A DNA stretch of 64,000 nt from Betaproteobacteria bacterium (GTDB lineage Bacteria; Pseudomonadota; Gammaproteobacteria; Burkholderiales; Casimicrobiaceae), in assembly GCA_027492485.1 (NCBI GenBank), contig JAPUER010000003.1, positions 1 to 64,000 on the forward strand, given 5' to 3'. The notes under the pieces are model-generated. The model was not told the origin of the DNA and searched no databases. It worked only from the letters and a program-made list of their open reading frames with translations. A program made the position numbers and the translations under genes. Each line of letters opens with the position of its first letter. Position 1 is the stretch's first letter. This document shows positions 1,205 to 55,898 of the stretch, in pieces.

Positions 1205-1321
1205 CAGCTTTTCGTTGCTGCGCGCAGCAGAGTGGGCTTGGCGGCAAATAAAAGCAAAAGTCGAGATTAGGCTAAAACCGCTGCCATGCCCAATGGCACT
1301 GCGCTCTCGGGTGAAAAGCTG
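1205..1321. repeat. 117-bp palindromic element, copy 1
   Basis: The left end is CAGCTTTTCG and the right end GAAAAGCTG. The central AGTCGA is at 1259-1264, 54 bp from the left end. The copy fills the gap between bfr and bfd. It belongs to a family of eight copies in this window. Confidence 0.85.
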
Positions 1322-1358
1322 TATCGAGCGAGTGGCTCGCCCACGAACCTGCCGCGCG

Positions 1359-1544
1359 CTACGCCGCCTGCGCGTAAGTGGCGCCGAGCGCGTCGTTCAG
1401 CACGTTACGCGCGCAGTCGGTGCAGCAGCCGCAACAGGTGCCGACGCCGGTATGGCAGGCGAGATCGCTCATCGACGACGCGCCGTTCTGCACGGCTTCG
1501 TGGATGGCTTTTTCATTGATCCCGTGACAGACACAAACGATCAT
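1359..1544 (-). CDS. bfd: Bacterioferritin-associated ferredoxin
   Basis: This 61-residue protein has a BFD-like [2Fe-2S] fold. It reduces Fe(III) in bacterioferritin so that iron can be released. Cysteines lie in MIVCVCHG near the N-terminus and in TCCGCC, as expected for the C-x-C plus C-x2-C ligand set. The length matches the family (about 60-70 aa). A Fur-box-like palindrome lies about 95 bp upstream at 1641-1653, fitting induction under iron limitation. Confidence 0.93.
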   Translation of the reverse strand: MIVCVCHGINEKAIHEAVQNGASSMSDLACHTGVGTCCGCCTDCARNVLNDALGATYAQAA

Positions 1545-1636
1545 TTCGTACTACCCGACTGTTGATGGGCCGTCGTTCGCGGTTCGGCTCCGGCTGCCCG
1601 CGGGCCGTGTGAGCCGGCGCCGGTGGGTCAGAAGAT

Positions 1637-1657
1637 AAATGCGAACGATTCGCAATA
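1637..1657 (-). promoter_or_regulatory. Fur box upstream of bfd
   Basis: GCGAACGATTCGC at 1641-1653, flanked by AAAT and AATA, is a palindrome of the type seen at Fur-regulated promoters. The same core recurs at 4067, 4583 and 13293, each time next to iron genes. Confidence 0.75.
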
Positions 1658-1712
1658 TTGTATTGAATTCTTGAATTGCAAGCAAGCGGTTCGATAACGC
1701 GCAGCCAGGCGC

Positions 1713-3620
1713 TCAGCCCAAACCGCAGGCAACCGCCACGCGGTAGGTGACGAACGCGGCCAGATAGGCGAGCGCGAACAGGTAAGCCGCCATGATGAGC
1801 GGCATCGTCCAGCCGCCGGTTTCGCGCTTGACGGTGGCCAGCGTCGACAGGCATTGCGGCGCGAACACATACCAGGCCAGCAGCGCATAGGCCGTCGCCA
1901 GCGACCACGACTGCGCGATGATCGGCGCCAGCGCGCGGGCGGCGTCCTCGCCGGTGGCCGACAGCGCGTAGACGGTGCCGAGCGCGCTCACCGCCACTTC
2001 GCGCGCCGCCATGCCGGGGATCAGCGCGATCGAAATCTGCCAGTTGAAGCCGATCGGTTGCAGCACCCAGGACAGCGCATGGCCGAGCTTGCCGGCGAGG
2101 CTGTACTCGATCGCCGGCCCGGTGGCGCCCGCCGGCGGCGCCGGAAAACTGGCCAGCGCCCAGAGCACGATGGTGAGCGTCAGGATCACGCCGCCGACGC
2201 GGCGCAGAAAGATCAGCGCGCGCTGCCACAGGCCAAGCGCCACTGCCGGGACGGTCGGCCAGTGATAGTTCGGCAGCTCCATCATCAACGGACGCACCAG
2301 CCGCCCCTCGCGCGTGAAGCGCTTGAGCAGCCACGCCACCGCCATCGCGCCAGCAATGCCCGCGGCGTACAGCACGAAGAGCACGATGCCCTGCAGCTCG
2401 AACAGGCCCGCCACCTCGCGCTGCGGCACGAAGGCGCCGATCAGCAGCGCGTACACCGGCAGCCGCGCCGAGCAGGTCATCATCGGCGCGATGAGAATGG
2501 TCACCATGCGGTCGCGGCGGTCGCCGATGGTGCGGGTGGCGATGATGCCCGGGATCGCGCAGGCGAAGCTCGACAAGAGCGGAATGAACGAACGCCCGGA
2601 CAGCCCCACGCTGCCCATCAGGCGGTCGAGCAGGAACGCCGCACGCGGCAGATAGCCCGATTCTTCGAGCACCAGAATGAAGAAGAACAGGATCAGGATT
2701 TGCGGCAGGAAGACCACGACGCTGCCCAGCCCGGCGATCACGCCGTCGACCAGCAGGCTGCGCAGCGGGCTTTCCGGCAGCCATTCGCCGACGGCGGTGC
2801 CAAGCCAGGCGGTGGCCGCCTTGATCGCGTCCATTGCCGGCGTCGCCCACGAGAACACCGCCTGAAACATCAGGAACAGCAGCACGGCCAGCAGCAGCAG
2901 GCCGAACACCGGGTGCAGCACCACGCGGTCGATGCGGTCGCTCAGGGTTTCCGGCGCGCTGGCGGCAAGCCCGATGCGGATGAGGATGTCGTCGACGATC
3001 TGGTGATCGGGGCGGCGGTCGTCGATGAAGGGGTTGCCGCCGTGGGCGCCGGGCGCTGCTGTGGCCAGCAGGCGCTGGCGCAGGGCCGGGGCGTCGTCGA
3101 GCAGCGCGCGCAACGCCTCGTCGCCGCTGGCCTTGACCGCCACCGTGCGCACCACCGGCACGCCGAGCGCCTCGCTCAGCCGCGCGCTGTCGACATGAAT
3201 GCCGCGCTGCGCGGCGAGATCGCTCATGTTGAGCGCCACCACGCAGGGCAGGCCCTGGCGCCGCACCGCGAGCACCAGCCGCAGATGGCGGCGCAGATTG
3301 GTGGCGTCGACCACGCAGATCACCAGATCGGGCCGCTTCTCGGCGCTGAAGCGGCCGGCCAGCACGTCGCAGGTGACGCGTTCGTCGAGCGAGCGCGGGT
3401 TCAGGCTGTAGGTGCCGGGCAGATCGAGCACGCGCAGATGGCGGCCGCCGGGCAGCACGTAACGGCCTTCCTTGCGCTCGACGGTGACGCCGGCGTAATT
3501 GGCCACCTTCTGCCGGCTGCCGGTCAGGCGGTTGAACAGCGCGGACTTGCCGCAATTCGGATTGCCAACCAGCGCAACCAGCAGGCCGGATTCGTGAAAG
3601 TGGAGCGGCGCCGTGGTCAT
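1713..3620 (-). CDS. feoB: Ferrous iron transport protein B
   Basis: This 635-residue inner-membrane protein imports Fe(II), driven or gated by its N-terminal G domain. The G1 motif GNPNCGKS is at residues 19-26, followed by the G3 motif DLPGTYSL and the G4-like NMSD. The C-terminal half has many hydrophobic segments with the paired gate domains typical of FeoB. Its length is within the family range (about 600-770 aa). It follows feoA by 34 bp in the same orientation, and the two form one operon downstream of a Fur box. Confidence 0.96.
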   Translation of the reverse strand: MTTAPLHFHESGLLVALVGNPNCGKSALFNRLTGSRQKVANYAGVTVERKEGRYVLPGGRHLRVLDLPGTYSLNPRSLDERVTCDVLAGRFSAEKRPDLVICVVDATNLRRHLRLVLAVRRQGLPCVVALNMSDLAAQRGIHVDSARLSEALGVPVVRTVAVKASGDEALRALLDDAPALRQRLLATAAPGAHGGNPFIDDRRPDHQIVDDILIRIGLAASAPETLSDRIDRVVLHPVFGLLLLAVLLFLMFQAVFSWATPAMDAIKAATAWLGTAVGEWLPESPLRSLLVDGVIAGLGSVVVFLPQILILFFFILVLEESGYLPRAAFLLDRLMGSVGLSGRSFIPLLSSFACAIPGIIATRTIGDRRDRMVTILIAPMMTCSARLPVYALLIGAFVPQREVAGLFELQGIVLFVLYAAGIAGAMAVAWLLKRFTREGRLVRPLMMELPNYHWPTVPAVALGLWQRALIFLRRVGGVILTLTIVLWALASFPAPPAGATGPAIEYSLAGKLGHALSWVLQPIGFNWQISIALIPGMAAREVAVSALGTVYALSATGEDAARALAPIIAQSWSLATAYALLAWYVFAPQCLSTLATVKRETGGWTMPLIMAAYLFALAYLAAFVTYRVAVACGLG

Positions 3621-3654
3621 CGAAGGGCGGCGGCAATCGCCATCCGGCGCAGGG

Positions 3655-3900
3655 TCATGCCGACGTCACCGCGATCAGCCGCGCCTCGCTGCGCCGCAGC
3701 GCAAAGCGCGAGGCGCCGACCCGCACCACCAGCGGATCGCCGCCCGGCACGCCGCGCACCAGCACCGCCACGCTTTCGCCGTCGACGAAGCCGATTTCGT
3801 GCAACCGGTGCAGGGTCTCCGACGGCGCATCGTGCGCATGGTGCTCGGCGCCGGCAACGATGCGGGCACCCTGGCCGAGCGGGAGATCATCGAGCGTCAT
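3655..3900 (-). CDS. feoA: Ferrous iron transport protein A
   Basis: This 81-residue SH3-like protein supports FeoB at the membrane. The reading frame stays open upstream to 4101, but the start MTLDDLPLGQGARIV at 3900 is chosen because it gives the normal FeoA length. The longer reading would also place the Fur box (4067-4079) inside the coding region. It is first in the operon with feoB. Confidence 0.9.
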   Translation of the reverse strand: MTLDDLPLGQGARIVAGAEHHAHDAPSETLHRLHEIGFVDGESVAVLVRGVPGGDPLVVRVGASRFALRRSEARLIAVTSA

Positions 3901-4062
3901 GTTGTCATCGAGGCGGGCAATACCCAAAGTTGTGTCGCCGATTTGCGGTCGCGGGCGCGACGGCAGGCGCCAGCGGACCGCCGTTTTGCGCTGCGCGTCC
4001 GGTGCCGGTTGCGGGCGTCGGGCGAGCTTCGCGGTGGTGTGGGCAGTGTAGCGGAATCGAAG

Positions 4063-4082
4063 AAATGCGAATTGTTCGCGTT
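4063..4082 (-). promoter_or_regulatory. Fur box upstream of feoAB
   Basis: GCGAATTGTTCGC at 4067-4079 is a near-perfect palindrome about 165 bp before the feoA ATG. It matches the other three sites in this iron region. Confidence 0.7.
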
Positions 4083-4134
4083 GGCTCCTTGATTGACGCA
4101 AGACAAGCCATGCGCGGAAAAAAGCCGTCGCGGC

Positions 4135-4485
4135 TCAGGCGAAGCGGGCGCGCTGGATCAAGGCGGTCAGGCTGACCAGGTTTTCCGGCGGTGCCGGCGG
4201 CGCGATGACGCGCTGCGTCGCCAGATGCCGCTCCATGATCGGCTCCCAGGTGTCGATCCAGTGCGCCACGGTGTCGGAGAGCTGGCTGTTTTCGGCAAGG
4301 TCGGACGCCAGCGCCTTGAGGTGGGCGACGATTGCCGCAGCCAGTCGCGCGCTGTCGTGGCCATCGCATTTTTCGAGCGCGAAGCGGCTCATCAGTTCGA
4401 CGATCCAGGTCAGGCGCTCGCGTGCGCTCGGGCATTGGGCGTCGATGACAGGGGTGACGAACGGGGTGGTAGCGGTGGTGGACAT
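4135..4485 (-). CDS. Unknown protein in the iron regulon
   Basis: I do not recognise this 116-residue protein. The ATG at 4485 is preceded by AGGAGA at good spacing, so it is preferred over an upstream in-frame ATG at 4557. The sequence is soluble and predicted mostly helical, with no signal peptide and one cysteine near the N-terminus. It shares a divergent intergenic region and one Fur-box-like site (4583-4595) with hemP, so it is probably expressed when iron is short. Function is not inferred. Confidence 0.75.
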   Translation of the reverse strand: MSTTATTPFVTPVIDAQCPSARERLTWIVELMSRFALEKCDGHDSARLAAAIVAHLKALASDLAENSQLSDTVAHWIDTWEPIMERHLATQRVIAPPAPPENLVSLTALIQRARFA

Positions 4486-4580
4486 GACGGTCTCCTGGTT
4501 GGCGTGTCGATCGGTCGCCCGGCGCCGAACCGGGCAGTTCACAGCACTCCCATTCATCTTTCCGGATTTGCAAAAAGATG

Positions 4581-4600
4581 TTGCGAACGATTCGCATTTA
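4581..4600. promoter_or_regulatory. Fur box between hemP and the divergent unknown gene
   Basis: GCGAACGATTCGC at 4583-4595, followed by ATTT, lies about 105 bp from hemP and about 98 bp from the minus-strand gene. It could therefore control both. Confidence 0.75.
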
Positions 4601-4700
4601 CAGTAAATTTATCACAGGGATCGCAGCGGCGGTCCACAAAATCGATGACACGGGGCGATCGCGCCACGATGACACGACACGACGGGCACGACAAGGCAAG

Positions 4701-5054
4701 ATGCAAGCAACGAGTACAACCGGGATTCGCGATGGCGCAGCCAACGAGCAGGGCGCAGGCGCCGGCGGCGCGACCGATCGCGAGCAGGCGCCGGCGGCGG
4801 GCAGCGCGGCACGCACGGTCGAGCGCAAGACGCTGTCGGTGCGTCGCGTGGTCAGGGTCGGCGAGGCGGACGGCGGCGCCGGCCTGGCAGCGGCACGCGC
4901 GCCGGCCAAAGCGACAGCAAGCGGCGGCGCGACCGGCGCCATCCCGCTCAAGCGCCTGACCGCCGGGCGCAAGGAGATCAGCATCCTGCACGACGGTTCG
5001 ACCTATCTGCTGCGCATCACCAAATCGAACAAACTCATTCTAACCAAGGCGTAA
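4701..5054 (+). CDS. hemP: Hemin uptake protein HemP
   Basis: The 117-residue product ends in the HemP domain: a GRKEISILHDGSTYLLRIT stretch, then a lysine-rich KLILTK end. The N-terminal ~65 residues are Ala/Gly-rich and low-complexity. That makes it longer than the usual 50-80 aa. ATG 4701 follows an AAGG. HemP is a small Fur-regulated factor needed for full expression of haem uptake genes in Burkholderia-type bacteria. Here it stands apart from the hmu operon but carries the same Fur site type. Confidence 0.85.
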   Translation: MQATSTTGIRDGAANEQGAGAGGATDREQAPAAGSAARTVERKTLSVRRVVRVGEADGGAGLAAARAPAKATASGGATGAIPLKRLTAGRKEISILHDGSTYLLRITKSNKLILTKA

Positions 5055-5245
5055 TTCCCGGCCGCACGCCGGACACCGTTTAACCGCCAACCAGCCAAGC
5101 CGGACCTGCACTCCCCGGCACTAGCCCGTTGGCCCCCCTTGCATCACCAGTATCGGACGGCCGCCGGGCGCGGTTGCCCGAACGCTGTTGCGATTGGCGG
5201 GCGATGGCAATCGCCGTTACTGTGAATCGAACCCCGGCGATGCGA

Positions 5246-6241
5246 TCACTTGGCGAGGCGTGCCTTGAGCGCGATGCAGGGATCGGGGCGGTTGGCCGGC
5301 GGGCCGTAGACGATGGCGTCAAAGCGCCCGTCGCTTGCTGGCCCGGCGTGGTCCGGGGTGCCGGTTTCGACGAAACCGATGGCGAGCAGCGTGGTCGACG
5401 CAGCCAATGCGCCGCCCGGTAGCCACAGCGGCACGCCGATGTCGCGCCGGACGTGGCCGTTGCCGGCGAACAGCAGCACGCCTTGGGCGTTGCTTCCCGC
5501 CCCTTGGGCACCGCTTCCTGCGCCTTGGGCGCCGCTCACTCCGCGGCTGCGGGCGAATGCAATCCGCTGCGCCATCGTGGCGTCGCGTGCGATTTGCGCG
5601 TCGGCCATCGGTGCCAGCGCGGCTTCCGGCAGCAGATGGCAATGGCCGCTGCGCACTTCCTCTCGCTGCGCCTCGCGGACGGCGGCCGGGATGGTGGCGG
5701 GCAGGCTACCGTCCGCCGCATCGGCCGGGCCCTGCGCGAGCTTCATGGCGTCGGCGCGCGACAGATTGCCGGCAACGATCGGCAGCTCGCGGTCGAGCGC
5801 GAGCTGCAACAGCGGCCGGTAGTAGTCCCAGTTCCAGTTGTTGCGAGCGGGCGCGGCGCGGGTGATCAGGTGCGCGGCGTCGCGCGGCTGCTCGCGGCGT
5901 GCGGCGTCGATCGCGTCCTGCGCGTCGCGGTCGAATTGCTCGAACACGAACGCTGGCCGCACACCCGCGCGCAGCGCCGCGGCGACGACGCATTGCCGCT
6001 CGCGGTGCAGCGCCGGGTTGTCATGCACTTCGCCGAGCAGCACGATGCGCCCGTCGCGCAGGGCATCGCCGACGCGGGCAGCCACGGCGTTGCACTGCGG
6101 CCCCGTGTCGCCGGCGGCGCGCGGCCACTGGCCGCAAGCAGCCAGCGCGACCGGCAGCAGCAGCGCGGCAACGGTGTGCAGCGCGTGCCGTCCGAGGTAT
6201 TTTGCAAACCCGCCGGCGGTGTCTTGCGGTGGCACAGGCAT
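5246..6241 (-). CDS. ChaN-like haem-binding lipoprotein
   Basis: The ChaN/Tiki-superfamily signature VLLGEVHDNPALH and FVFEQFDRD is clear. Such proteins bind haem and often accompany haem uptake genes. The start at 6241 gives a signal peptide ending in the lipobox ALAAC. An in-frame ATG at 6265 lies inside palindromic element copy 2 and adds eight residues, and neither start has a good ribosome site. Near the C-terminus a short tandem repeat (GAQGAGS-like, encoded by 21-bp repeats at about 5482-5541) enlarges a loop. It lies between hemP and hmuV. Confidence 0.85.
   Translation of the reverse strand: MPVPPQDTAGGFAKYLGRHALHTVAALLLPVALAACGQWPRAAGDTGPQCNAVAARVGDALRDGRIVLLGEVHDNPALHRERQCVVAAALRAGVRPAFVFEQFDRDAQDAIDAARREQPRDAAHLITRAAPARNNWNWDYYRPLLQLALDRELPIVAGNLSRADAMKLAQGPADAADGSLPATIPAAVREAQREEVRSGHCHLLPEAALAPMADAQIARDATMAQRIAFARSRGVSGAQGAGSGAQGAGSNAQGVLLFAGNGHVRRDIGVPLWLPGGALAASTTLLAIGFVETGTPDHAGPASDGRFDAIVYGPPANRPDPCIALKARLAK
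5482..5541. repeat. 21-bp tandem repeat inside the chaN-like gene
   Basis: Roughly three in-frame copies of a 21-bp unit starting CCTTGGGC encode a repeated AQGAGS-type peptide. Being in frame, it changes loop length without breaking the gene. Confidence 0.7.
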
Positions 6242-6242
6242 A

Positions 6243-6360
6243 TGGCTATTGAGCGAAAAGCGCATTGAATAAGGGCACAGGGCAATAAATCATCGAAAGT
6301 CGACTATTTGATAATTTGCGTATTCTGCCCATATCAAATGCGCATCTTGGCAAAAAGTTG
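6243..6360. repeat. 118-bp palindromic element, copy 2
   Basis: The right end CAAAAAGTTG is well kept and the left end TGGCTATTGA is degenerate. AGTCGA lies at 6298-6303, 55 bp from the left end. It lies between hmuV and the chaN-like gene and reaches up to the latter's start. Confidence 0.75.
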
Positions 6361-6390
6361 TTAGCAAAACGCGGCTACCGCGCGACGGAC

Positions 6391-7197
6391 TCAAACGAGC
6401 GCGACGGAAACGCGCGGACGATCGCTGCCGGGCGGCCGATGGACGTCGGCGTTGACCTCGAACACGCGCTGCAGTTGTTCGCGGTGGACGGTGGCGGCCG
6501 GGCTGCCGTCGGCGACGATCTCGCCGTCGCGCATCCAGACTATGCGATCGGCCCATTGCGACACCAGATTGATGTCATGCAGCACGGCGAGCACGCCGAC
6601 GCTGCGCGACTGCGCAAACTCGCTGACGCGCGACAGCAGCAGGCCCTGATGCTTGAGGTCGAGCGCCGCCGTCGGCTCGTCGAGCAGCAGCAGGCCGGGC
6701 TGCTCGTGGCTGGCCTCCCAAGCTTGCGCCAGCACGCGTGCGCAGTGCACGCGGGCGCGCTCGCCGCCGGACAGCGTGGTGATGTCGCGCGCCGCCAGCT
6801 CATGCGCGTCGAGCAGCGCCAGCGCCGCGCCGACGATCTCGCGGTCGCGCGCACGCAGCGCGCCCGCGCAATGCGGAAAGCGGCCCAGCTCGACGATCTC
6901 GCGCGCCGTGAACGCAAACGGCACCTGCGTGCTCTGCGGCAGCACGTAGCGCAGGCGGGCGCGATCGGGGTCGCGCCAGTCGCCGATGCGGCGGTCGCGC
7001 AAGAGCACGCTGCCGCTATCGGGCCTGAGTTCGCCGGCGGCGACGCGCAGCAGCGTCGATTTGCCGGCGCCGTTGGCGCCCACCAGCGCCACGCGCTCGC
7101 CGGGCGCGACGCGCAGCGAGGCGTCGCGCACCAGGTGGCGGCGATGGCGGACCACACCGACGCGGTCGAGGTGGAGCAGGGCGCTGCTCGCCATCAT
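6391..7197 (-). CDS. hmuV: Haem ABC transporter, ATP-binding protein
   Basis: This 268-residue ATPase powers haem import across the inner membrane with HmuU. It has Walker A GANGAGKST, signature LSGGERARV and Walker B LLLLDEPTAALD. GAGG seven bases before the ATG at 7197 supports this start over an in-frame start at 7224 that would overlap hmuU. It is the last gene of the hmu operon and lies 7 bp after hmuU. Confidence 0.95.
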   Translation of the reverse strand: MMASSALLHLDRVGVVRHRRHLVRDASLRVAPGERVALVGANGAGKSTLLRVAAGELRPDSGSVLLRDRRIGDWRDPDRARLRYVLPQSTQVPFAFTAREIVELGRFPHCAGALRARDREIVGAALALLDAHELAARDITTLSGGERARVHCARVLAQAWEASHEQPGLLLLDEPTAALDLKHQGLLLSRVSEFAQSRSVGVLAVLHDINLVSQWADRIVWMRDGEIVADGSPAATVHREQLQRVFEVNADVHRPPGSDRPRVSVALV

Positions 7198-7204
7198 GCC
7201 GCCC

Positions 7205-8269
7205 TCATGTCGCCCAGTGGCCACGCTGGCGGCGCAGCAGGATCAGGAAGAACGGCACGCCGAGCAGCGCCGTCAGCACGCCGATCGGCAGTTCGGCCGG
7301 CGGCACCAGCGTGCGCGCGACGAGGTCGGCCGCCGTGGTCAGCCCGGCGCCGAGCAGCGCCGAGGCGGGGATCAGCGTGCGATGGTCGGGGCCGGCGACG
7401 AGCCGGATCAGATGCGGCGCGACCAGTCCGATGAAACCGATCATGCCGCAGAACGCGACCGCGGCGCCGACCGCGATCAAGGCCAGCACCACGACCCGGT
7501 TCTTCAGCCGCTGGGTGTCGACGCCCAGATGCTGCGCCTCGGCCTCGCCGAGCACCAGCGCGTTGAGCTGCGGCGCCAGCAGTCGGCTGCCGGCCAGCGC
7601 GATGGCGATCGGCGGCGCCACGATGGCCAGCATCGCCCAGCTTGCCGCGCCCAGCGATCCGAGCGTCCAGAAGTTGAAGGCGCGCAACTGTACGTCGTTG
7701 GCGACGTAGACCAGCAGCCCGATGCCGGCGGCGGCCAGCGCCGACATCGCCACCCCGGTCAGCAGCATGGCCGACACCGAGGTGATGCCGTCGCGCGTCG
7801 CGATGCGCTGCACGATCAGCACCACGACGGCGCCGCCGGCAAAGGCCGCAACCGGCAACGCACCGTTGGCCCAGCCGCCGCCGGCACCGGGCGTGGCGGC
7901 GCCGCCGAGCACGATCACTGCGGCGGCGGCCAGCGCCGCGCCGCTGGTCACGCCAATCAGTCCGGGGTCGGCGAGCGGGTTGCGGAACAGGCCCTGCAGC
8001 AGCGCGCCGGACACCGCAAGGCCGGCGCCGACCGTCATCGCCAGCAGCACGCGCGGCAGCCGGATGCTCCACAGCACCGCCGCCTGCTGCTCGCTGCTGC
8101 CCTGATGCAACGACAGCCCCAGCGGCGACAGCAGGATGTCGATCACGTTGAGCGATGGGATCGGATAGGCGCCGCGGCCGATCGCGACGACGAACACAAT
8201 GCCGCACAGCACGCCAAGCGCGAGCCACAACAGGCGCGGCGCCAGCCGGCCACTCGCCGCCTGCATCAT
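7205..8269 (-). CDS. hmuU: Haem ABC transporter permease
   Basis: This FecCD/BtuC-family permease has about ten membrane segments. It contains SVSAMLLTGVAMSALAA and the AAHLIR-like VAPHLIRLV region typical of iron/haem permeases. The start at 8269 gives 354 residues, normal for the family. A TTG at 8401 in the same frame would add 44 Arg-rich residues of unclear value. A 275-bp stretch separates it from hmuT, in which I see no convincing gene. Confidence 0.93.
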   Translation of the reverse strand: MMQAASGRLAPRLLWLALGVLCGIVFVVAIGRGAYPIPSLNVIDILLSPLGLSLHQGSSEQQAAVLWSIRLPRVLLAMTVGAGLAVSGALLQGLFRNPLADPGLIGVTSGAALAAAAVIVLGGAATPGAGGGWANGALPVAAFAGGAVVVLIVQRIATRDGITSVSAMLLTGVAMSALAAAGIGLLVYVANDVQLRAFNFWTLGSLGAASWAMLAIVAPPIAIALAGSRLLAPQLNALVLGEAEAQHLGVDTQRLKNRVVVLALIAVGAAVAFCGMIGFIGLVAPHLIRLVAGPDHRTLIPASALLGAGLTTAADLVARTLVPPAELPIGVLTALLGVPFFLILLRRQRGHWAT

Positions 8270-8544
8270 GCCGGCGCGTTCGCGGTGATGGCGGAAGCGC
8301 CGCCACCACGGCGCGCCTGCGCCGGCGGCGAGATCACTCACCGCCCGACGGCTTCGGCTGCCGGCGTGCAAGGCCACGCCGCGCTGGCGCGGCCGGGGCA
8401 ACCGGTTGCGCGGCGAGGTAACGGCTCATGGCGTTGCGCTGCCAGCGCGCGAAAGGCAGTGCAGGCAGCGCCGCGCAGGCCTGGCAAGCGCAGGGTTGCG
8501 CGCTTGCGGCAGTGTTGCCGGCATGGCGTGGCGTTTTCACCGGC

Positions 8545-9474
8545 TCAGCCCGCTGCGGTTTTCCGGCCGTCGGCGGCGTCGCCACGCAAGCGTTCGGCGG
8601 CCTCGCGCACGGCCGCCGGCAGACGCGGCCCGAAGCCGATCAGATAGAGCGCATCCATCGCCACCACGCGCTTGTGCTTGCCGGCAGCGGTGAGCGCGAG
8701 TCCTGGCTGCTGCCACAGCTTGTCGATGCCGCCGAGCGCGGTGATGCCTTGCGTGGTGGTCAGAATCACGTCCGGCAGGGCGGCGACGATGGCCTCGGTG
8801 GTCATCGGCTTGTAGCCCTGCACACCGGCCAGCACGTTGCTCGAACCGGTCAAGCGGATGAAGGCGTCGGCCGCGGTGCCTTCGCCGGCCACCTGTGGCG
8901 TGCCGCTGTGCGACAGGATGAACAGCACGCGCGGTTTGCTGCGCTGCTGTGCGACATAGCGCTGGGCGTCCTGCATCTCCTGCGCGAGCTTTGCTTCCAG
9001 CGCCTTGCCGGCGGCGTCGCGGCCGAGTGCCGCGGCCACCACGCGCACCTTGTTGCGCAGTTCGTCGAACGAATGGTCGGCGCTGACCGTCTGGATGTTG
9101 ACTTTCGCCTCGCGCAACTGCGCGAGCACGTTGGCGGGGCCGGCTTCGTTGGTGGCGAGCAGCAGCGTCGGTCGCATCGACAGCACGCCTTCGGCGGACA
9201 ACTGCCGCATGTAACCGACCTTGGGCAGACGCAGCGCCGCCTCGGGGTAGAGACTGGTGGTGTCGACCGCCACCAGCGATTGCTCGCCGCCGAGCGCGTA
9301 GACGATCTCGGTCAGTGCGCCGCCGACGCTCACCACGCGTTGCGCGCTGGCCGTGGCCGGGTTCGCGGGCGTCTGCGCCTCGGCGCCAACGCCGCAGAGG
9401 CCGAGGCCGAGCGCGACGAGGGTGGACAGCCAGACCCGGCGCAGGCTGCGCTCGGGTTTCCGTTCGGCGCTCAT
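8545..9474 (-). CDS. hmuT: Periplasmic haem-binding protein
   Basis: This 309-residue class III substrate-binding protein (TroA/BtuF fold) delivers haem to HmuUV. It has a signal peptide (LVALGLGLCGVGAEA), then RVVSVGGALTEIVYALG and the LLLATNEAGP strand. A conserved Tyr in LYPEAALRLPKVGYM is a probable haem ligand, as in other HmuT proteins. Its ATG overlaps the hmuS stop by 4 bp, indicating translational coupling. Confidence 0.94.
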   Translation of the reverse strand: MSAERKPERSLRRVWLSTLVALGLGLCGVGAEAQTPANPATASAQRVVSVGGALTEIVYALGGEQSLVAVDTTSLYPEAALRLPKVGYMRQLSAEGVLSMRPTLLLATNEAGPANVLAQLREAKVNIQTVSADHSFDELRNKVRVVAAALGRDAAGKALEAKLAQEMQDAQRYVAQQRSKPRVLFILSHSGTPQVAGEGTAADAFIRLTGSSNVLAGVQGYKPMTTEAIVAALPDVILTTTQGITALGGIDKLWQQPGLALTAAGKHKRVVAMDALYLIGFGPRLPAAVREAAERLRGDAADGRKTAAG

Positions 9475-10544
9475 GCCGTGGCTTCCGACGGGATCGCGGC
9501 GAGCAGCGCGCGCCAGGCGTCGAGCTCGGCGATACCGGGCTTGCGTTTGCCGAAGAAAAAGGCGATGGCGTCGCCGTGCCGGTCGTAGATTTCCAGCGAG
9601 CTCACGATGCCGTCGGCGGTCGGCTTGCGCACCACCCAGCTTTGCGCGATCAGGTCTTCGCGCAGGTGCAGGTTGAACTCGGGGTCGAGCACGTTGACCC
9701 AGGGCCCCATGATCTGGACGTTGTTGACCAGCCCGGTGTGAATCTGGATGCAGCCGGGGTTTGGCACGAAGATCATGATCTCCAGCAGCGTCGCCGATGC
9801 CTGTTCGAGCACCTGGCGCGCGGCGGCATTGGGCACGCGGCGCGCATGTTCGGTGTCGGCCAGGCGCAAGCCCTGGGTGCGGGCAACGCCGAACTTGCGC
9901 AGCAAGCCGAAGAACTCGTGGGTGTCCTGCATGGCCTGCCAGGCGCTGCGGAAACCTTCGCCGTCGATTTCGGCGTCGGGCTTTTCTTCGCGGCGCGGCG
10001 CGGCCGGCGTGACCGCGATGCCCGGTGTCTGGTCGTCGGCCGCGAACCGGCGCGCCAGACCGGCGAACGCCGCGCCATCGGTGGTGCCGCGCTCGAACAC
10101 TTTGTGCACCGCGTTGCCCTGGGCATCGAAGAACTGCAGGCTGCGCGCGGTCTTGTCGTCGCTCTTTTCCTCGACGAAGAAGCCGTGCGCCCATTGCGCG
10201 TAGAAGATGCGCAGGTCGATGTCGGGGCCGAGCACCAGGCCAACGTGGCCGTCGACGCTGGCGTCGAGATAGGTGCCGTCGCGTTCGTGCACGGCGGCCT
10301 CGTTGCGGGTGAGCGCCATGACGTTGCCGGCGGTTGCCAGGACGGCGATCAGTTCCGGGAACGGGCCGTGGAGCCGCGTGGCGTGCAGCGCGTGCGCGCT
10401 GCCGACATGCGCGGCGATGGCTTCGCCCTCGCTGATGCCGAGTTCGCGGGCGGCATCGCGATGACGCATCCTGCGGTCGCGGCGCAAGCTCTGGAATTGG
10501 TCGCAGAGGGCGGACAGGTGATCGGTGGCGGATTCGACGAGCAT
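9471..10544 (-). CDS. hmuS: Haem-degrading / haem-trafficking factor HmuS
   Basis: This 357-residue HemS/ChuX-type protein with two repeated domains binds haem in the cytoplasm and passes or degrades it. The N-terminal half has LGISEGEAIAAHVG, typical of the family. The repeats DLRIFYAQWAHGFFVEE and EFNLHLREDLIAQSWVVRKP are the paired core strands. ATG 10544 is preceded by AGGAG, which is better than the TTG two codons upstream. Confidence 0.94.
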   Translation of the reverse strand: MLVESATDHLSALCDQFQSLRRDRRMRHRDAARELGISEGEAIAAHVGSAHALHATRLHGPFPELIAVLATAGNVMALTRNEAAVHERDGTYLDASVDGHVGLVLGPDIDLRIFYAQWAHGFFVEEKSDDKTARSLQFFDAQGNAVHKVFERGTTDGAAFAGLARRFAADDQTPGIAVTPAAPRREEKPDAEIDGEGFRSAWQAMQDTHEFFGLLRKFGVARTQGLRLADTEHARRVPNAAARQVLEQASATLLEIMIFVPNPGCIQIHTGLVNNVQIMGPWVNVLDPEFNLHLREDLIAQSWVVRKPTADGIVSSLEIYDRHGDAIAFFFGKRKPGIAELDAWRALLAAIPSEATA

Positions 10545-10574
10545 GTGCAACTCCTGGGCGGTCGGTGCGCGGGG

Positions 10575-10838
10575 TCAGTGAAGGGGGGCGTGCAGGCGCT
10601 GGTAAGCGACGATCTCGCCATAGCGTTCGGCGATGTTGCGGTCCCAGTCGCCCTGCAGCCGCTGGCAGAGGTCGCGCAGCGGCGGCGACAGATGCGGGCA
10701 GCCGGCGAGCAGTTCGAGATTGCGGCTGATCCGCTCGGCCACGCAGGTGCATTGCCGCGTCGGATACTGCGTCATCAGCGCCAGTGTGCCGGCGATCACC
10801 GGCTCGATCTCGGCGGGGTCTGCGAGCGCGGCCGGCAC
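10575..10838 (-). CDS. Small unknown protein of the haem operon
   Basis: This 87-residue protein starts at GTG 10838, immediately after the hmuR stop, and lies 30 bp before hmuS. It has no signal peptide. A central QCTCVAERISRN segment and a later CPHL supply four cysteines in all (with DLCQRL), so metal or cluster binding is possible but unproven. The sequence looks helical. Its position between receptor and HmuS suggests a role in haem handling. I do not recognise a named family. Confidence 0.7.
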   Translation of the reverse strand: MPAALADPAEIEPVIAGTLALMTQYPTRQCTCVAERISRNLELLAGCPHLSPPLRDLCQRLQGDWDRNIAERYGEIVAYQRLHAPLH

Positions 10839-10839
10839 G

Positions 10840-15159: not shown

Positions 15160-15277
15160 TGGCTTTTCGCTGGAAGCGTTATCTTGATTGGGCTCAGGCC
15201 GCAGAAATTCAATAAGTCGACTTTCGATAAAAACGCGCTATGAGCCCATATTGAATGGCGCTTTCACCAAAAAGCTG
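15160..15277. repeat. 118-bp palindromic element, copy 3
   Basis: The left end is TGGCTTTTCG and the right end CAAAAAGCTG. AGTCGACTTTCGATAA begins at 15215, 55 bp from the left end. The copy is intergenic between two plus-strand genes. Confidence 0.9.
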
Positions 15278-23189: not shown

Positions 23190-23307
23190 CAGCTTTTTTG
23201 CGAAAGCGGCGCCTGTAACGGGTTCAGACGCTAAAACGTACTCAAGTCGACTTTCGATAAAAAAGCGCGGCCAGCCCCAACGAACAAGCGTTTTCCACCA
23301 AAAGCTG
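23190..23307. repeat. 118-bp palindromic element, copy 4
   Basis: The left end is CAGCTTTTTTG and the right end CAAAAGCTG. AGTCGACTTTCGATAA begins at 23245, 55 bp in. The copy fills the gap between two convergent genes and could act as a shared terminator. Confidence 0.9.
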
Positions 23308-33370: not shown

Positions 33371-33487
33371 CAGCTTTTTGCGTCAAACGGCTGCATACCG
33401 TCGTTACATCCTTATAAGTGCAATAGTCGACTATACAAAGAAATAGCGCGAAACGACCGATCGATCAGCGTTAGCGCCAAAAAGCTG
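33371..33487. repeat. 117-bp palindromic element, copy 5
   Basis: The ends are perfect CAGCTTTTTG and CAAAAAGCTG. AGTCGACT begins at 33425, 54 bp in. It lies inside the pmd gene run, between the Bug gene and ligI, and may break or tune the operon. Confidence 0.92.
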
Positions 33488-40734: not shown

Positions 40735-40851
40735 CAGCTTTTTGACGAAACACCCATTGAATAATGGAAAAACTCGATATTAATGCAATGTCGACTTTTT
40801 ATAAAATAGGTCTTTTAGCCTTATGTATATTACGTTGCAATCAAAAAGCTG
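40735..40851. repeat. 117-bp palindromic element, copy 6
   Basis: The ends are perfect CAGCTTTTTG and CAAAAAGCTG, with TGTCGAC at the centre (40789). It lies in the divergent ispB/rplU intergenic region, upstream of the rplU promoter. Confidence 0.92.
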
Positions 40852-46919: not shown

Positions 46920-47037
46920 CAGCTTTTTGCTGGAACGCCCATTCTGTATGGGCATATGACCGGAAAATCGCGATAGTCGATATTTGATCAAATCGCGGTT
47001 CGAACCCATATCCAGCGGGTATTCTGCGAAAAAGCTG
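46920..47037. repeat. 118-bp palindromic element, copy 7
   Basis: The ends are CAGCTTTTTG and GAAAAAGCTG. AGTCGATATTTGAT begins at 46975, 55 bp in. It lies directly upstream of valS and overlaps its likely promoter region. Confidence 0.92.
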
Positions 47038-47109
47038 TAACCCACGCGGTTACAATTTTCGCTTCCACCAATTCGATGCTGCCGCGCCTGTCGCGGCGTT
47101 TTTGTCACC

Positions 47110-49983
47110 ATGTCCGCCAACGCCACGGCCCGCCCCAGCGCCCTCGATTCCCTCGCCAAATCCTTTGAACCGAAAGCCATCGAAGCGAAGTGGTATCCGG
47201 TCTGGGAGCGCGCCGGTTATTTCGTCCCCAGCGGTGATGCGGCGAAGCCGGCCTACACCATCCAGTTGCCGCCGCCGAACGTCACCGGCACGCTGCACAT
47301 GGGCCACGCCTTCCAGCAGGCGCTGATGGACACGCTGATCCGCTATCACCGCATGAAGGGCGACAACACCAACTGGGTGGTCGGCACCGATCATGCGGGC
47401 ATTGCGACCCAGATCGTCGTCGAGCGCCAGTTGCAGGGGGAAGGCAGCTCGCGGCACGATCTTGGCCGCGACGAATTCACCCGCCGCGTCTGGCAATGGA
47501 AGGAGCAATCGGGCTCGACCATCACGCAGCAGATGCGGCGCCTGGGGGCGTCGGCAAACTGGGGCTACGCCGACGCCAGTGGCGCCAACCAGGGCTACTT
47601 CACGATGGACGACCACATGTCGAAGGGCGTGGTCGAAACCTTCGTGCAACTCTTCGAGCAGGGCCTCATCTATCGCGGCAAGCGCCTCGTGAACTGGGAT
47701 CCGGTGCTGCAATCGGCGGTGTCCGACCTTGAGGTAGAGTCGGTCGAACGCGAGGGCCACATGTGGCACATCCTCTACCCGTTCACCGACGGACCTATCG
47801 ATGGACCGGATGGTCCGATCCGAGGCATGCACATCGCGACGACGCGGCCCGAGACGATGATGGCCGACGGCGCGCTCGCCGTGCATCCCGAAGACGAGCG
47901 CTACAAGCATCTGCTTGGCAAGCGCGTCGACATTCCGCTGATGGGCCGCAGCATTCCGATCATCGCCGACGACTTCGTCGACCGCGAATTCGGCTCCGGC
48001 TGCGTCAAGATTACCGGCGCCCACGACTTCAACGACTACGCCTGCTCGCTGCGCCACAACCTGCCGCTGATCACCATCTTCACGCTCGACGCCCACGTCA
48101 ACGAGAACGGCCCGAAGGCCTATCAGGGCATGGACCGCTTTGTGGCGCGCAAGGCCGTGCTCAAGGACCTCGAGGCGCAGGGCTATCTCGAAAAAACCGT
48201 GCCGCACAAGCACATGGTCCCGGTGTGCGAACGCACCGGTCAGATCGTCGAGCCGATGCTGACCGATCAATGGTTCGTCGCGACCAGCAAGGCAACGCCG
48301 AAGCATCCGGGCGGACTCGCGGGCCGTGCGCTCGACGCCGTGGCGCGCGGCGACATCCGTTTCTTCCCCGAGCACTGGACGCAGACCTATAACCACTGGC
48401 TGCAGAACATCCAGGACTGGTGCATTTCGCGTCAGCTCTGGTGGGGCCATCAGATTCCGGCGTGGTATGACGCCGACGGCAAGGTGTACGTCGCGCGCAG
48501 CGAGGCCGACGCGCTCAAGCAGAGCGGCGGCAAGCCGCTCACGCGCGACCCCGACGTGCTCGACACCTGGTTCTCGTCGGCGCTGGTGTGCCACACGACG
48601 CTCGGCTGGCCCGATGGCGCGCGCTTCGAGAAGGACAGCGTGTATCTGCCTAGCAACGTGCTGGTGACCGGCAACGACATCATCTTCTTCTGGGTCGCTC
48701 GGATGATCATGATGACGCTGCACTTCACCGACCGCGTGCCGTTCCGCGACGTCTACATCAATGCTATGGTGCGCGACGCCGAAGGCAACAAGATGAGCAA
48801 GTCGAAGGGCAATGTGCTCGATCCGATCGACCTCGTCGACGGCATCGCGCTCGAGCCGCTGGTCGAGAAGTCGCTCAAGGGACTGATGCTCGAATCGCAC
48901 AAGGAGAAGGCCGAGAAGTACATCCGCAAACACTTCGCCGAGGGCATCCCGGCATATGGTGCCGACGCGGTGCGCTTCACGTTTGCTTCGCTCAGCAACA
49001 TGTCGATGACGCTCAATTTTGACCTGTCTCGCTGCGAGGGCTATCGCAACTTCTGCAACAAGCTGTGGAACGCGACGCGCTTCGTGCTGATGAACGTCGA
49101 GGGCACGGATTGCGGCATCAACGGCGGCGAACAGCAGCTCTCGTTCGTCGACCGCTGGCTGCTCGGCCGCCTGCAGTTCGCCAAGCGCGACATCGCCGAG
49201 GGCCTCGACAGCTACCGTTTCGACTTCGCGGCGAAGGCGCTGTACGAGTTCGTATGGGACGAGTACTGTGACTGGTACGTCGAGTGCGCCAAGGTGCAGA
49301 TTGCTGAGGCCGAAAAGGCCGGCAACGAGGCCGCGGCGCGCGGTACGCGCAGTGTGCTGGTGCGCGAACTCGAAGCAACGCTCAGGCTCGCGCATCCGGT
49401 CATGCCTTTCATCAGCGAGGAACTCTGGCAGACCGTAGCTCCGCTCGCCGGCAAGTCAGGCGCCTCGATCAGCACCCAGCCGTTCCCGAAGTTCGGTGCC
49501 GACCGCGTCAACGCCGAGGCGAACGCCAAGATGGCCGTGCTCAAGGAGCTTGTGACCTCGTGCCGCACGCTGCGCAGCACGATGAAGATCTCGCCGGCCG
49601 AACGCGTGCCGCTGATCATCGAACACAGCAAACCGGCCGACGCCGCGACGCTACACGAATTCGCACCCTACATCGCGGCGCTCGCGAAGCTCTCCGAGGT
49701 GCGCATTGTCGACACGCTGCCGGCCAACGACGCGCCGGTGCAGGTGGTTGGCGATTTCCGCCTGATGCTCGAGATCAAGGTCGATCCGGCGCAGGAACGT
49801 GCCCGTCTCGACAAGGAGATCGCACGGCTGACGGGCGAGGTCGCGAAGGCGACCGCCAAGCTCGGCAACCCGGCATTTGCCGACAAGGCCCCAGCCGCCG
49901 TCGTCGCCACCGAGCGCGAGCGGCTGACGGCGTTCAGCGCGACGCTGGAAAAGATCGCGGCGCAGCGCAGGAACCTCGGTTGA
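47110..49983 (+). CDS. valS: Valyl-tRNA synthetase
   Basis: This 957-residue class I synthetase has a HIGH motif as HMGH in [17 protein letters not shown] in [13 protein letters not shown], an editing domain with the [17 protein letters not shown] motif and a C-terminal coiled-coil arm ([17 protein letters not shown]). Full length, no defects seen. Confidence 0.98.
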
Positions 49984-52942: not shown

Positions 52943-52984
52943 GGACGGTCGCATGCGCAAGGCGTATCGAGCCGTCCTTTTTTT
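52943..52984 (+). terminator. Terminator after the ferritin-like gene
   Basis: GGACGG and CCGTCC form a 6-bp stem with a partly paired loop, followed by seven T. Confidence 0.75.
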
Positions 52985-53006
52985 GGTCTGAATTGTCGGA
53001 GTCATC

Positions 53007-53378: not shown

Positions 53379-53401
53379 GCTCAACAAATCTCGCCGCGGG
53401 G

Positions 53402-53501
53402 CGTAGGGTGGGCAACTTGTTTACCCACGCGTCAAGCTGATTACCATCCTGTCGTTTGGGGACCATGGTGCACGCGTGGGCAACGAGTTACCCACCCTAC
53501 G
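53402..53501. repeat. Long inverted repeat (GTAGGGTGGGCAAC type)
   Basis: Arms at 53402-53432 and 53472-53501, both with CGTAGGGTGGG...CCCACGCGT, are imperfect reverse complements. It lies between the convergent cytochrome and YbaK genes. Confidence 0.8.
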
Positions 53502-53528
53502 AAACTGCGCGGGTCTATCGGCCAGTGG

Positions 53529-54008: not shown

Positions 54009-54069
54009 TGATGAAACTGCGGTGGCGTTTCGGTCAATGCTAGCGTGGTGTTGTATGGGTAGTGCTCAC

Positions 54070-54133
54070 TGTGGGAGCGGTATCACCGCGACCGCTGTAA
54101 TGCCAGCACAGTCGCGGTGATACCGCTCCCACA
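54070..54133. repeat. REP doublet (23-bp perfect inverted repeat)
   Basis: The arms 54070-54092 and 54111-54133, starting TGTGGGAGCGGTATCACCGC, are exact reverse complements. It lies between rhlE and ybaK and may act as a transcript end. Confidence 0.85.
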
Positions 54134-54140
54134 AAGGCCG

Positions 54141-55697
54141 TTAGCTCGCGACGGCTTCTGCGGTTTGCTCCGGCTCTGCCACGGGTTCCGCGACTGGCAC
54201 ATGCCGCACCGGTGCCTTGAGCAGCACGCAGACTTCGCGCATGGCGCGACGGCCGACGGCGGCGTTGCGACCACCACGCGCGCCACGGGCGCTGGGCGCG
54301 ATCGGCTGATCGGGGTTCAGGTCGTAGTGCGATTTGTCGCGCGGACCGCGATCGCTGTTCGGGCGCGGCTCGGTCATCGAGCGGCGCACTTCGCCGCCTT
54401 CGCGCGGCTCGCGACGCGGGCCGTAGCGATCGCCGTAGCGCGACAGGTCCGGCATCGGCTGCTCGCCGAGCTTGCGCTTGATGAGCTTTTCGATTTCGGC
54501 GAGCAGCTTGCCGTCGTCGGGCGACACGAACGAAATCGCCGTGCCGCTAGCGCCGGCGCGACCGGTGCGGCCGATGCGGTGCACGTAATCTTCGGCGACG
54601 AACGGCAGCTCGTAGTTCACCACCGTCGGCAGTTGATCGATGTCGAGGCCGCGCGCGGCGACGTCGGTGGCGACGAGGATGCGCGTGCTGCCGTTCTTGA
54701 AGCCGTCGAGCGCCTTGATGCGTTCTTCCTGCGACTTGTCGCCGTGGATGGCATCAGTGGCGAAACCGTCGCGCGCCAGCTCGCGTGCGAGGCGGGCCGT
54801 TTGCAATTTGGAGCGCGAGAAGACCAGCACCTGCGTGAGGTTCTGCGAGTTCACCAGATGACCGAGCAGGCGGCGCTTGTCGTCGCCGTGCACGCGGAAC
54901 ATCTGCTGCGCGACGTTGGCGGCGGATTCGTTGCGGCGCGCAACTTCGATCAAGGTCGGCGCCTTCAGCATGCGGTCGGCGAGCTTCTTGATCTCGTCGG
55001 AGAAGGTGGCGGAGAACAACAAACTCTGCCGCTTCTCGGGCAGCATGCCGATGATGCGCACGATGTCGGGGATGAAGCCCATGTCGAGCATGCGGTCGGC
55101 TTCGTCGAGCACCAGCACTTCGACCTGATTCAGCGCCAGATTCTTCTGCTCGATGTGGTCGAGCAGGCGGCCCGGCGTGGCGACCAGGATTTCGACGCCG
55201 GCGCGCACCGCGGCTTTCTGTTCCTTGATGTCGACGCCGCCGAACACGACGGTGGAGCGCAGACCGGTGTGTTTGGCGTAGGTCTCGACCGATTCTTCGA
55301 TCTGAATTGCCAGCTCGCGCGTCGGCGCCAGCATCAGCGCGCGCACCGGATGGCGCGCGGGCGATGGCGAGGTGTTGGCATGCTTGAGCATGCGGTTCAG
55401 GATCGGCAGCGTGAACGCGGCCGTCTTGCCGGTGCCGGTCTGGGCGCCGCCCATGACGTCGAGTCCGGCGAGCACGACCGGAATCGCCTGTGCCTGGATC
55501 GGCGTCGGTTTGACGTAACCGGCATCAGTCACCGCGCGCAGGATCGGTTCGGCGAGGTTGAGGCGGGCGAAGGTAATCGCGTCGGCGTCGACGGCTGCTG
55601 GCGTCGCTGCGTCGGAGGTCGGCTGGAGCGGCGCCGCGAGTTCGGTACCGGACGCGACGGTCGTCGTCGCGTCGCTGGAAAGGGAGTCGATGGTCAT
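54141..55697 (-). CDS. rhlE: DEAD-box RNA helicase RhlE
   Basis: This 518-residue helicase has AQTGTGKTAAFTLPIL, PTRELAIQIEE, VLDEADRMLDMGF, LFSATFSDEI, ARGLDIDQLP and HRIGRTGRAG. The C-terminal ~110 residues are Arg/Gly/Pro-rich but much shorter and less repetitive than those of the helicase at 19714. Role is probably in ribosome maturation and RNA turnover. Confidence 0.94.
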   Translation of the reverse strand: MTIDSLSSDATTTVASGTELAAPLQPTSDAATPAAVDADAITFARLNLAEPILRAVTDAGYVKPTPIQAQAIPVVLAGLDVMGGAQTGTGKTAAFTLPILNRMLKHANTSPSPARHPVRALMLAPTRELAIQIEESVETYAKHTGLRSTVVFGGVDIKEQKAAVRAGVEILVATPGRLLDHIEQKNLALNQVEVLVLDEADRMLDMGFIPDIVRIIGMLPEKRQSLLFSATFSDEIKKLADRMLKAPTLIEVARRNESAANVAQQMFRVHGDDKRRLLGHLVNSQNLTQVLVFSRSKLQTARLARELARDGFATDAIHGDKSQEERIKALDGFKNGSTRILVATDVAARGLDIDQLPTVVNYELPFVAEDYVHRIGRTGRAGASGTAISFVSPDDGKLLAEIEKLIKRKLGEQPMPDLSRYGDRYGPRREPREGGEVRRSMTEPRPNSDRGPRDKSHYDLNPDQPIAPSARGARGGRNAAVGRRAMREVCVLLKAPVRHVPVAEPVAEPEQTAEAVAS

Positions 55698-55781
55698 TGC
55701 ACAAATTTTACGCGATTCTTGCGCTGCAACACGCGTGATTTTGGCTCGCGAAGCCGCATCCAGTCGTGGATGGCTGGCGAA

Positions 55782-55898
55782 TGGCTTTTTGCGTTCTGCG
55801 TTGATAATCGGTCGCTACAGCACGAAACTTAAGAAAGTCGAGATAACAAGAAAATACGATGTAACGTATGTCCCACCTGCATTGTCTCTATAAAGCCA
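55782..55898. repeat. 117-bp palindromic element, copy 8
   Basis: The left end is TGGCTTTTTG and the right end TAAAGCCA. AGTCGA begins at 55836, 54 bp in. Its last base directly abuts the stop codon of the LysR gene. The right arm is the most diverged of the eight. Confidence 0.75.

Follow-up and report, generated by a model that had tools for sequence, protein, structure and literature searches.

Elements of the window

The window, that is, the whole stretch of DNA analysed here, comprises the first 64,000 nucleotides of contig JAPUER010000003.1 (assembly GCA_027492485.1) of a betaproteobacterium of the family Casimicrobiaceae. It carries eight copies of an intergenic palindromic element, located at 1205–1321, 6243–6360, 15160–15277, 23190–23307, 33371–33487, 40735–40851, 46920–47037 and 55782–55898. 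The first-pass annotation had reported eight copies of 117–118 bp, and all eight are present. The core tetranucleotide TCGA occupies 1261–1264, 6300–6303, 15217–15220, 23247–23250, 33427–33430, 40791–40794, 46977–46980 and 55838–55841, respectively. AGTCGA had been placed at a fixed offset in every copy; the core position holds, but the copy at 40735 reads TGTCGA. The halves were described as imperfect reverse complements, which agrees with an ungapped self-complementarity of 31–56% (36/117 to 66/118), and the density of about one copy per 8 kb is correct for the window.

The genome of the window is referred to as G000, and the other genomes of the same genus as G001–G016 (17 in all). The first copy extends over 1202–1323 if the conserved A/T flank is included. 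The third copy is among the best model matches of the genome, and the fourth has convergent genes on either side. The fifth copy carries a type-2 inner repeat (CCGTCGTT/CGGTCGTT); G015 has an element at the same place and G005 has none. The sixth copy, between an ispB-like gene and rplU, is common to G005, G013 and G004. The seventh copy is located directly upstream of valS (valyl-tRNA synthetase, 47110–49983, forward strand), which served as the anchor for cross-species comparison, and the site is common to most of the genus. Its left arm (46924–46967) consists of a T tract, the inverted repeat GCCCAT-N5-ATGGGC with a sub-dyad 33.5 bp from the core, and an A tract; its right arm (46990–47033) is an imperfect mirror of the left arm. 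The eighth copy is divergent and is shared with G005. The window had been said to hold no transposase; none was named among the 28 window open reading frames scanned (two of them probably antisense frames), and the whole window and the genome were not searched for one.

Copy number and detection

The element was detected by an iterated nucleotide profile search, with the reversed sequence as the control. In seven contigs of the 4.12-Mb genome (841,501 bp), 84 copies were found, and none was found in the reversed sequence. The 84 hits consist of 76 full copies with a centred core, six partial copies and two full-length copies without a centred core. The loose pattern of end, core and end (GCTTTT-N40..55-GTCGA-N40..60-AAAAGC) gave 101 forward and 98 reverse matches in the whole genome, and the reversed pattern gave 1 and 0. 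The counts are low, as one window copy out of eight (55782–55898) escaped the profile. By extrapolation from 85 copies in 841.5 kb, there are about 416 elements per genome. The eight copies are real and are members of a genome-wide family.

Using the covariance models of Rfam 15 against the window, only one tRNA scored above the gathering score, and nothing was found at the copies. The first-pass statement that the copies could not be matched to a named repeat family stands as far as Rfam and the lack of recent copying typical of miniature inverted-repeat transposable elements (MITEs) are concerned; MITE and REP families were compared by their defining features and the literature. Among open-licence full texts, no description of the element was found.

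Anatomy of the element

According to the core-aligned symmetrized profile, the element has its two-fold axis at TC|GA, and conservation extends over 61 bp in either direction (about 122 bp in total), 2–3 bp further out per side than first annotated. From the outside in, it consists of two A/T bases, YAGCTTTT, the arm and the core AAGTC|GACTT. The ends (CAGCTTTT) are conserved as WWYAGCTTTT and its mirror. Among 136 measurable halves in G000, 98 are 59 bp, 34 are 58 bp and 4 are 60 bp long, and 16 further halves have no recognisable end. Many positions are near random; the core and some inner positions are conserved besides the ends. TCGA is present in every aligned copy, but these copies had been selected for GTCGA or TCGAC near the middle. 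Copies with a GTCAAC core occur in G000 (C16, 249774), in G012 (C9, 64639) and at the valS site of G015. With the halves counted together, an element carries 84 bits of information in G000 and 94 bits in G012.

Each arm has its own inverted repeat, a separate dyad in each half that was not part of the first description, giving three nested dyads in all. The axis of the arm repeat is located 33.5 bp from the centre in G000, G012 and G007 despite different letters, which are GCCCAT..ATGGGC in G000 (type 1), CGACC..GGTCG in G012 (type 2) and CGCCCAAT..ATTGGGCG in G007 (type 3). In G000 and G012, the symmetry of the GC profile and the complement symmetry both peak at this sub-dyad. At 12–15 bp from the centre, the tract in most cases reads AAAA, ATTT, TTTT or AAAT; a TpA step is missing from 106 of the 124 all-A/T tracts of G000 and from 36 of the 40 of G012. 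T tracts are located about 53 bp from the centre. The GC period in the arms is dominated by 7.5–7.75 bp in G000 (9.75 bp secondary) and by 9.5–9.75 bp in G012; a clean 10-bp periodicity is found only in part.

Among the seven partial copies of G000 and G012, six are half elements in which one arm and the complete TCGA are retained; the DNA on the other side is unrelated and GC-rich. These half elements are located in G000 at C16 5109–5171, 20901–20960 and 209009–209068, C3 65055–65110 and C9 38132–38194, and in G012 at C9 45686–45747. Some of this exactness is to be expected, as profile hits readily end where the strongly conserved core is reached. The half may function as a unit by itself; alternatively, the DNA was broken and rejoined at the core.

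The anatomy recalls DNA gyrase, which is the best named candidate and the main rival to the explanation favoured below. The elements would then be natural strong gyrase sites, with 122 bp wrapped and cleavage around TCGA with a 4-base stagger, serving between transcription units as relief stations, a role proposed for BIME-2. A passage of PMC6379681 describes the E. coli gyrase motif as symmetric and 130 bp long, with a 36-bp core, two periodic 47-bp arms and a GC period of 10.75 bp. The profile, symmetric to 61 bp on each side, agrees with a site of about 120–130 bp, and some A/T minima in the arms are about 10 bp apart. Breakage beside an intact TCGA, seen in six of seven partial copies, would be the expected outcome if ends cleaved there were rejoined incorrectly. 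Bacterial gyrases symmetrically prefer -2A/+6T and -4G/+8C, as given in part of PMC12324340. Assuming that cleavage is centred on TCGA, the first preference is found (A in 68/82 halves), but the second is not (G in 14/82 halves and A in 51/82; GC 0.28 in G000 and 0.44 in G012). The dominant GC periods of 7.75 bp in G000 and 9.75 bp in G012 seem to fit poorly to that of E. coli, and known gyrase motifs are degenerate, whereas the element is base-specific.

Reading as double-stranded DNA

An RNA or cruciform reading predicts that both arms of one copy match each other. In G000, the arm match of 41 copies is 0.499 against 0.484 for shuffled pairs, which is reached by 105 of 2000 shuffles (the half alignment omitted two of the 43 full copies, which have no centred core). 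For 76 copies, it is 0.481 within the same element and 0.461 between different elements. In G012 there is no excess (0.511 against 0.524), and in G007 the values are 0.421 and 0.377, with 19 usable copies after 9 of 28 were left out. The pairing of the repeat within an arm equals that given by the column frequencies in G000 (0.344 against 0.342) and G012 (0.482 against 0.492). RNAalifold gave no conserved pairs in 74 copies. As the arms are hardly matched and no RNA pairs are found, the motif is most likely read as double-stranded DNA. Thus, of the selection on structure or on protein binding that the first-pass annotation suggested, protein binding is supported and nucleic-acid structure is not.

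A transcribed RNA element (a terminator, a small RNA or an mRNA stabiliser) acting as a long hairpin would account for the imperfect palindrome and for the slight arm correlation in G000 and G007. However, neither a conserved pair nor an Rfam match is found at the copies, and 17 of 76 copies have divergent genes on either side, so that a common transcript would not be expected; this count speaks for the favoured explanation. As the arms hardly match and no pairs are found, RNA or cruciform structure is rejected as the main function, and the RNA explanation is largely refuted and extremely improbable.

Pairwise identities were compared with 20 sets of simulated independent draws from the symmetric profile; these and the context tests leave out eight of the 84 hits in G000 and two of the 28 in G012. 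The 76 copies of G000 show a mean of 0.485 and a maximum of 0.69, against a simulated mean of 0.487 and simulated maxima of 0.61–0.66. The 26 copies of G012 show a mean of 0.544 against 0.553, and a maximum of 0.68 against 0.65–0.70. The slight excess of G000 at the top similarity (0.69) is the sole sign of shared descent among the copies. A recent mobile element is unsupported, as the copies differ from each other about as much as the simulated sequences do.

An old MITE-like mobile family, with a transposase acting in trans, target immunity producing even spacing and subfamilies producing the species forms, is a different proposal. The terminal repeats, the A/T flanks and the high information content agree with it, as do the top pairs slightly above simulation. 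Type-2 halves also co-occur in one copy in 2 of 76 cases, although only 8 of 152 halves are typed as type 2. On the other hand, no pair among the 76 copies is closely related, and the core and some inner positions are conserved, not just the ends, with others near random.

Genomic location and spacing

Genes were predicted by a simple codon-based gene caller, and the sampled G000 contigs are 80–90% coding. All 76 full core-bearing copies of G000 are intergenic, the count leaving out the six partial hits and the two without a centred core. They occupy intergenic spaces of every kind, as first annotated: 37 are tandem, 22 convergent and 17 divergent, compared with 488, 116 and 115 of all adjacent gene pairs. 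The copies are also intergenic in G012 (26/26), G005 (19/19) and G015 (23/23); the G005 and G015 stretches had been picked around valS and ispB. The copies are closer to stops than to starts, with medians of 31 and 112 bp in G000 and of 31.5 and 51 bp in G012.

These locations bear on the idea that the elements are operators of a very large regulon, or promoter-proximal control elements acting on the adjacent promoter, as at valS. In G000, the -10-like hexamer TACAAT (47051–47056, forward strand), recognised by eye only, starts 13 bp past the element end, and the same spacing is seen by eye in G005, G012, G003 and G004. This agrees with such control, but 22 of 76 copies are located between convergent genes, where no promoter is expected, and the proximity to stops in G000 also speaks against it. 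Beyond the element ends the base composition gives no clear signal, and even spacing would be unexpected. We regard this explanation as quite improbable.

The spacing is non-random, which goes beyond the first-pass annotation. In G000 the median is 8.7 kb (5–95%: 3.2–22 kb, 78 spacings). For 167 spacings pooled from G000, G012, G005, G015 and G007, the coefficient of variation is 0.522. Random intergenic placement with three gap sets gave mean coefficients of 0.855–0.874 and minima of 0.69–0.70, and for each set 0 of 2000 placements reached the observed value. Spacings shorter than a quarter of the mean account for 3.0%, against 16.5–17.6% in the simulations, which never fell below 7%. The same result, again with 0 of 2000, was obtained for the full copies of G000 alone (0.55 against 0.858, minimum 0.565), for all G000 hits with the missed copy (0.528 against 0.868), for the full copies of G000 and G012 (0.579 against 0.861), and for G005 and G015 only (0.471 against 0.891, minimum 0.546). 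This spacing is compatible with domains of about 10 kb, a point that also favours gyrase sites.

Distribution and species dialects

A sequence model was built from 74 copies, leaving out 2 of 76 that cross stretch borders, and was applied at a threshold of E 0.01. At most 150 candidates were scored per genus genome and, with stricter filters, at most 59 per sister-genus genome. The first-pass annotation had proposed a genome search for further copies with the same spacing; they were found in G000, and 16 of the 17 genus genomes match the model. G016 has no match, and G009 has 26 strand matches (about 13 elements); both genomes are 2.5–2.6 Mb. With the stricter filters, no match was obtained in any of the 43 genomes that represent six further genera of the family. 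The loose pattern, applied to 399 genomes of the order (seven of them of the genus), gave 0–5 matches per genome outside the genus, and the control gave 0–6.

Among the 80 loci listed from a GTDB-based collection, whose stated total is 85 stretches and from which records close to the genome of the window may be missing, the profiles find a match in 71. All 71 are from metagenome-assembled genomes named Burkholderiales, Proteobacteria or Pseudomonadota. The remaining nine are single pattern hits without a profile match (Alteromonas, Bacteroidetes-group, Thiotrichales and Solirubrum records). None of 35 viral-contig loci matched the profiles.

According to the half-site consensus of each species, the ends, the A/T tract and the core are shared, and the arm repeat differs; these species forms are called dialects below. 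In G007, 28 copies of a divergent form were found in 160 kb, with no control hit. The form of G002 is weak (16 hits against 1 control hit), and its profile is partly contaminated, with at least one hit inside the ispB-like gene. By the strict pattern, the family seemed limited to 11 of the 17 genus genomes (including G000); given the G007 copies and the 16 of 17 model matches, this limitation is a detection artefact. By a crude motif rule, the 76 copies of G000 are type 1 in both halves (40), type 1 in one half (22), mixed (2), recognised only by type-2 halves (4) or untyped (8). The 26 copies of G012 are type 2 in both halves (11), type 2 in one half (8), mixed (3) or untyped (4).

The dialects and the narrow distribution are difficult for gyrase. 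The dialects vary while the C-terminal domain of GyrA is 96.8% identical between G005 and G012 and 91.1% between G005 and G007; that of G005 is also 97.1% identical to G000 and 89.4% to the element-free G016. With so little variation of GyrA between dialect types, gyrase is disfavoured as the cause of the dialects, and GyrA is unlikely to determine them. Gyrase is universal, yet the model finds no element in any of the 43 sister-genus genomes. Of the 17 genus genomes, 15 have six matches to the gyrase C-terminal repeat family; G004 has seven, one of them on a different contig, and G013 has none. We consider the gyrase explanation, as a whole, to be doubtful.

History of individual sites

The valS and ispB sites were selected for the copies that the window carries there, and the gyrA site emerged from the examination of gyrase. 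The assemblies of most relatives are fragmented. Upstream of valS, the element is present at 13 of 16 loci of the genus. Nine were found by the G000 and G012 profiles (G000, G005, G012, G001, G015, G004, G006, G013 and G003), and a diverged element was recognised by eye in four (G007, where its own profile finds it too, G011, G014 and, weakly, G002). It is absent in G009 and G016, and G010 is ambiguous. The 14 valS loci read in sister genera have no element. G012 and G003 carry a type-2 copy upstream of valS. Directly after the gyrA stop codon, G000 has an element at 3081–3196 of the stretch extracted from C15. This site is occupied in seven of nine genomes (G000, G005, G012, G007, G002, G015 and G001), with differing inner forms, and is empty in G008 and G016. 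Retention of the same sites in different dialects speaks against a MITE-like family and for the explanation favoured below.

Two side observations were made at these loci. G012 and G000 share 92% identity in ValS and only 75% in the IspB-like protein, which suggests a mosaic genome or a recombined valS region in G012. In G011 and G014, valS matches in two pieces (the query to residue ~671, then from 673), about 120 nt apart with the frame open, and by this alignment is read as carrying an in-frame insertion.

On the 3' side of the ispB-like gene, within 300 bp, an element is found in G013, G001, G015, G006, G011 and G007, G013 having one on both sides. As species that lack the rplU-side element often carry one on this side, sites may shift or substitute between neighbouring gaps.

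Syntenic gaps were compared between G000 and its relatives, the copy at 55782 being added by hand to the counts. Between G000 and G005 (median protein identity 90%), 46 gaps include four shared sites, two found only in G000 and none only in G005, with 0.5 shared sites expected by chance. For G015 (81%), 37 gaps include four shared, two G000-only and one G015-only site, with 0.8 expected. The corresponding shared, G000-only and other-only counts are 1, 2 and 0 in 11 gaps for G007, 0, 1 and 1 in three gaps for G002, and 1, 0 and 0 in five gaps for G001. A search with the LigAB protein gave mostly paralogues of 30–44% identity, and no syntenic comparison was gained. Fourfold-degenerate sites of G000 are only 62% identical to G005 and 51% to G015. 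This high neutral divergence, set against the kept ends and core, implies selection on these parts.

The presence or absence between species, with the element-free gap usually shorter by about one element or more, agrees with a MITE-like family; the G015-only site is an exception (148 and 158 bp). The first-pass annotation had proposed a comparison of flanks for target duplications. At the four presence/absence sites inspected, no exact empty site was found, which speaks rather against a MITE-like family; the flanks there are too diverged for exact empty sites. According to these features together, an old MITE-like family is unlikely.

Proposed function

The symmetry, the conserved ends and core, the arm repeats, the even spacing and the exclusion from genes lead us to propose a two-fold symmetric complex on double-stranded DNA that would contact the ends, the arms and the core. 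The dyad is most likely read as double-stranded DNA, as in matS- and parS-like sites, with little or no arm covariation; the protein itself is hypothetical. We give an even chance to the reading that the element is a putative docking site for a symmetric DNA-wrapping protein complex, marking chromosome domains of about 9 kb. A protein dimer would bind each arm repeat, the DNA would be bent or wrapped, probably bending at the A/T tracts, and both arms would be held together over the core. About 400 such complexes would form regularly placed domain anchors or insulators between transcription units.

A broader joint claim is made more tentatively, at somewhat below an even chance. In this claim, the elements constitute a new chromosome-architecture system of about 400 composite 122-bp putative docking sites every 9 kb, and the recognition code of the hypothetical DNA-wrapping complex diverges by species, most sites switching dialect together while some positions stay fixed. 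The arm-binding protein would change its specificity between species, and most genomic sites would follow. As the setter of the dialect, a dedicated protein with changing specificity seems more likely than gyrase, with which it possibly acts.

Several points weigh against the docking-site explanation. There is a weak left–right correlation in G000 (reached by 18 of 2000 shuffles) and in G007 (1 of 2000), and the arm-repeat pairing of G007 is slightly above expectation (0.423 against 0.382). Of the 27 classified G007 copies, 23 are intergenic and 4 are inside predicted genes. Contigs C29 and C44 by themselves are no more even than chance, and transposition immunity could be an alternative source of even spacing. 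An element of 84–94 bits is hard to evolve from scratch, so that a copying mechanism may exist. The ispB–rplU site is occupied in only 4 of 15 genomes (G000, G005, G013 and G004), and sites of G000 are absent at syntenic gaps in G005 (2/6), G015 (2/6), G007 (2/3) and G002 (1/1). The domain function would rest on analogy with the supercoil domains of enteric bacteria, which are about 10 kb in a passage of PMC3420936 and number 400–500 per chromosome in one of PMC3820752.

A regularly spaced conserved site at such density would make the question of domain boundaries directly testable. To our knowledge, no DNA sequence code that sets supercoil-domain boundaries is known. If the docking-site explanation is true, the species dialects would represent hundreds of sites co-evolving with one DNA-binding specificity.

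Other features of the window

An iron/heme uptake cluster is located at 509–13095 (a ferritin-like protein, FeoB, a ChaN-like protein, an ABC transporter and a TonB-dependent hemoglobin/heme receptor). A 293-bp direct repeat with 99% identity (60620–60912 and 63391–63683) duplicates the 3' part of a DUF3501 gene. The enclosed segment of about 2.5 kb carries a Fic-domain gene and two open reading frames without a Pfam match, and together with the repeat it looks like a small inserted island.

Comparison with known systems

No known family tested fits the element. BIME-2 and REP sequences of enterobacteria are, like the element, intergenic palindromic repeats in high copy, and BIME-2 is bound and cleaved by gyrase in E. 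coli (as described in part of PMC6379681). REPs are palindromes of 20–40 bp, many in dimers or clusters (in a section of PMC3733652), whereas the element is 122 bp long, mostly single and evenly spaced, and the conserved stem-loop of REP and BIME is absent from it (no pairs in 74 copies). MITEs such as ERIC, RUP and NEMIS resemble it in being intergenic and non-coding, with lengths of 70–300 bp and terminal inverted repeats (same section of PMC3733652). Unlike them, the element shows no recent copies, a conserved centre, species dialects at fixed sites and even spacing.

The strong gyrase site of phage Mu and the E. coli gyrase motif are similar to the element in length (130 and 122 bp), two-fold symmetry, a core with two arms and A/T–G/C alternation. 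The gyrase motif is degenerate and has neither base-specific ends nor arm repeats, whereas the element has both and misses -4G/+8C. The sites of the matS/MatP and parS/ParB systems are read as double-stranded DNA to organise chromosomes, as proposed for the element. The parS of plasmid P1 brings dimer sites together around a bend; unlike the element, sites of the parS type are short and located near ori. The matS site is 14 bp long and confined to Ter (according to a passage of PMC3420936), whereas the element is 122 bp long and is found in every G000 contig sampled.

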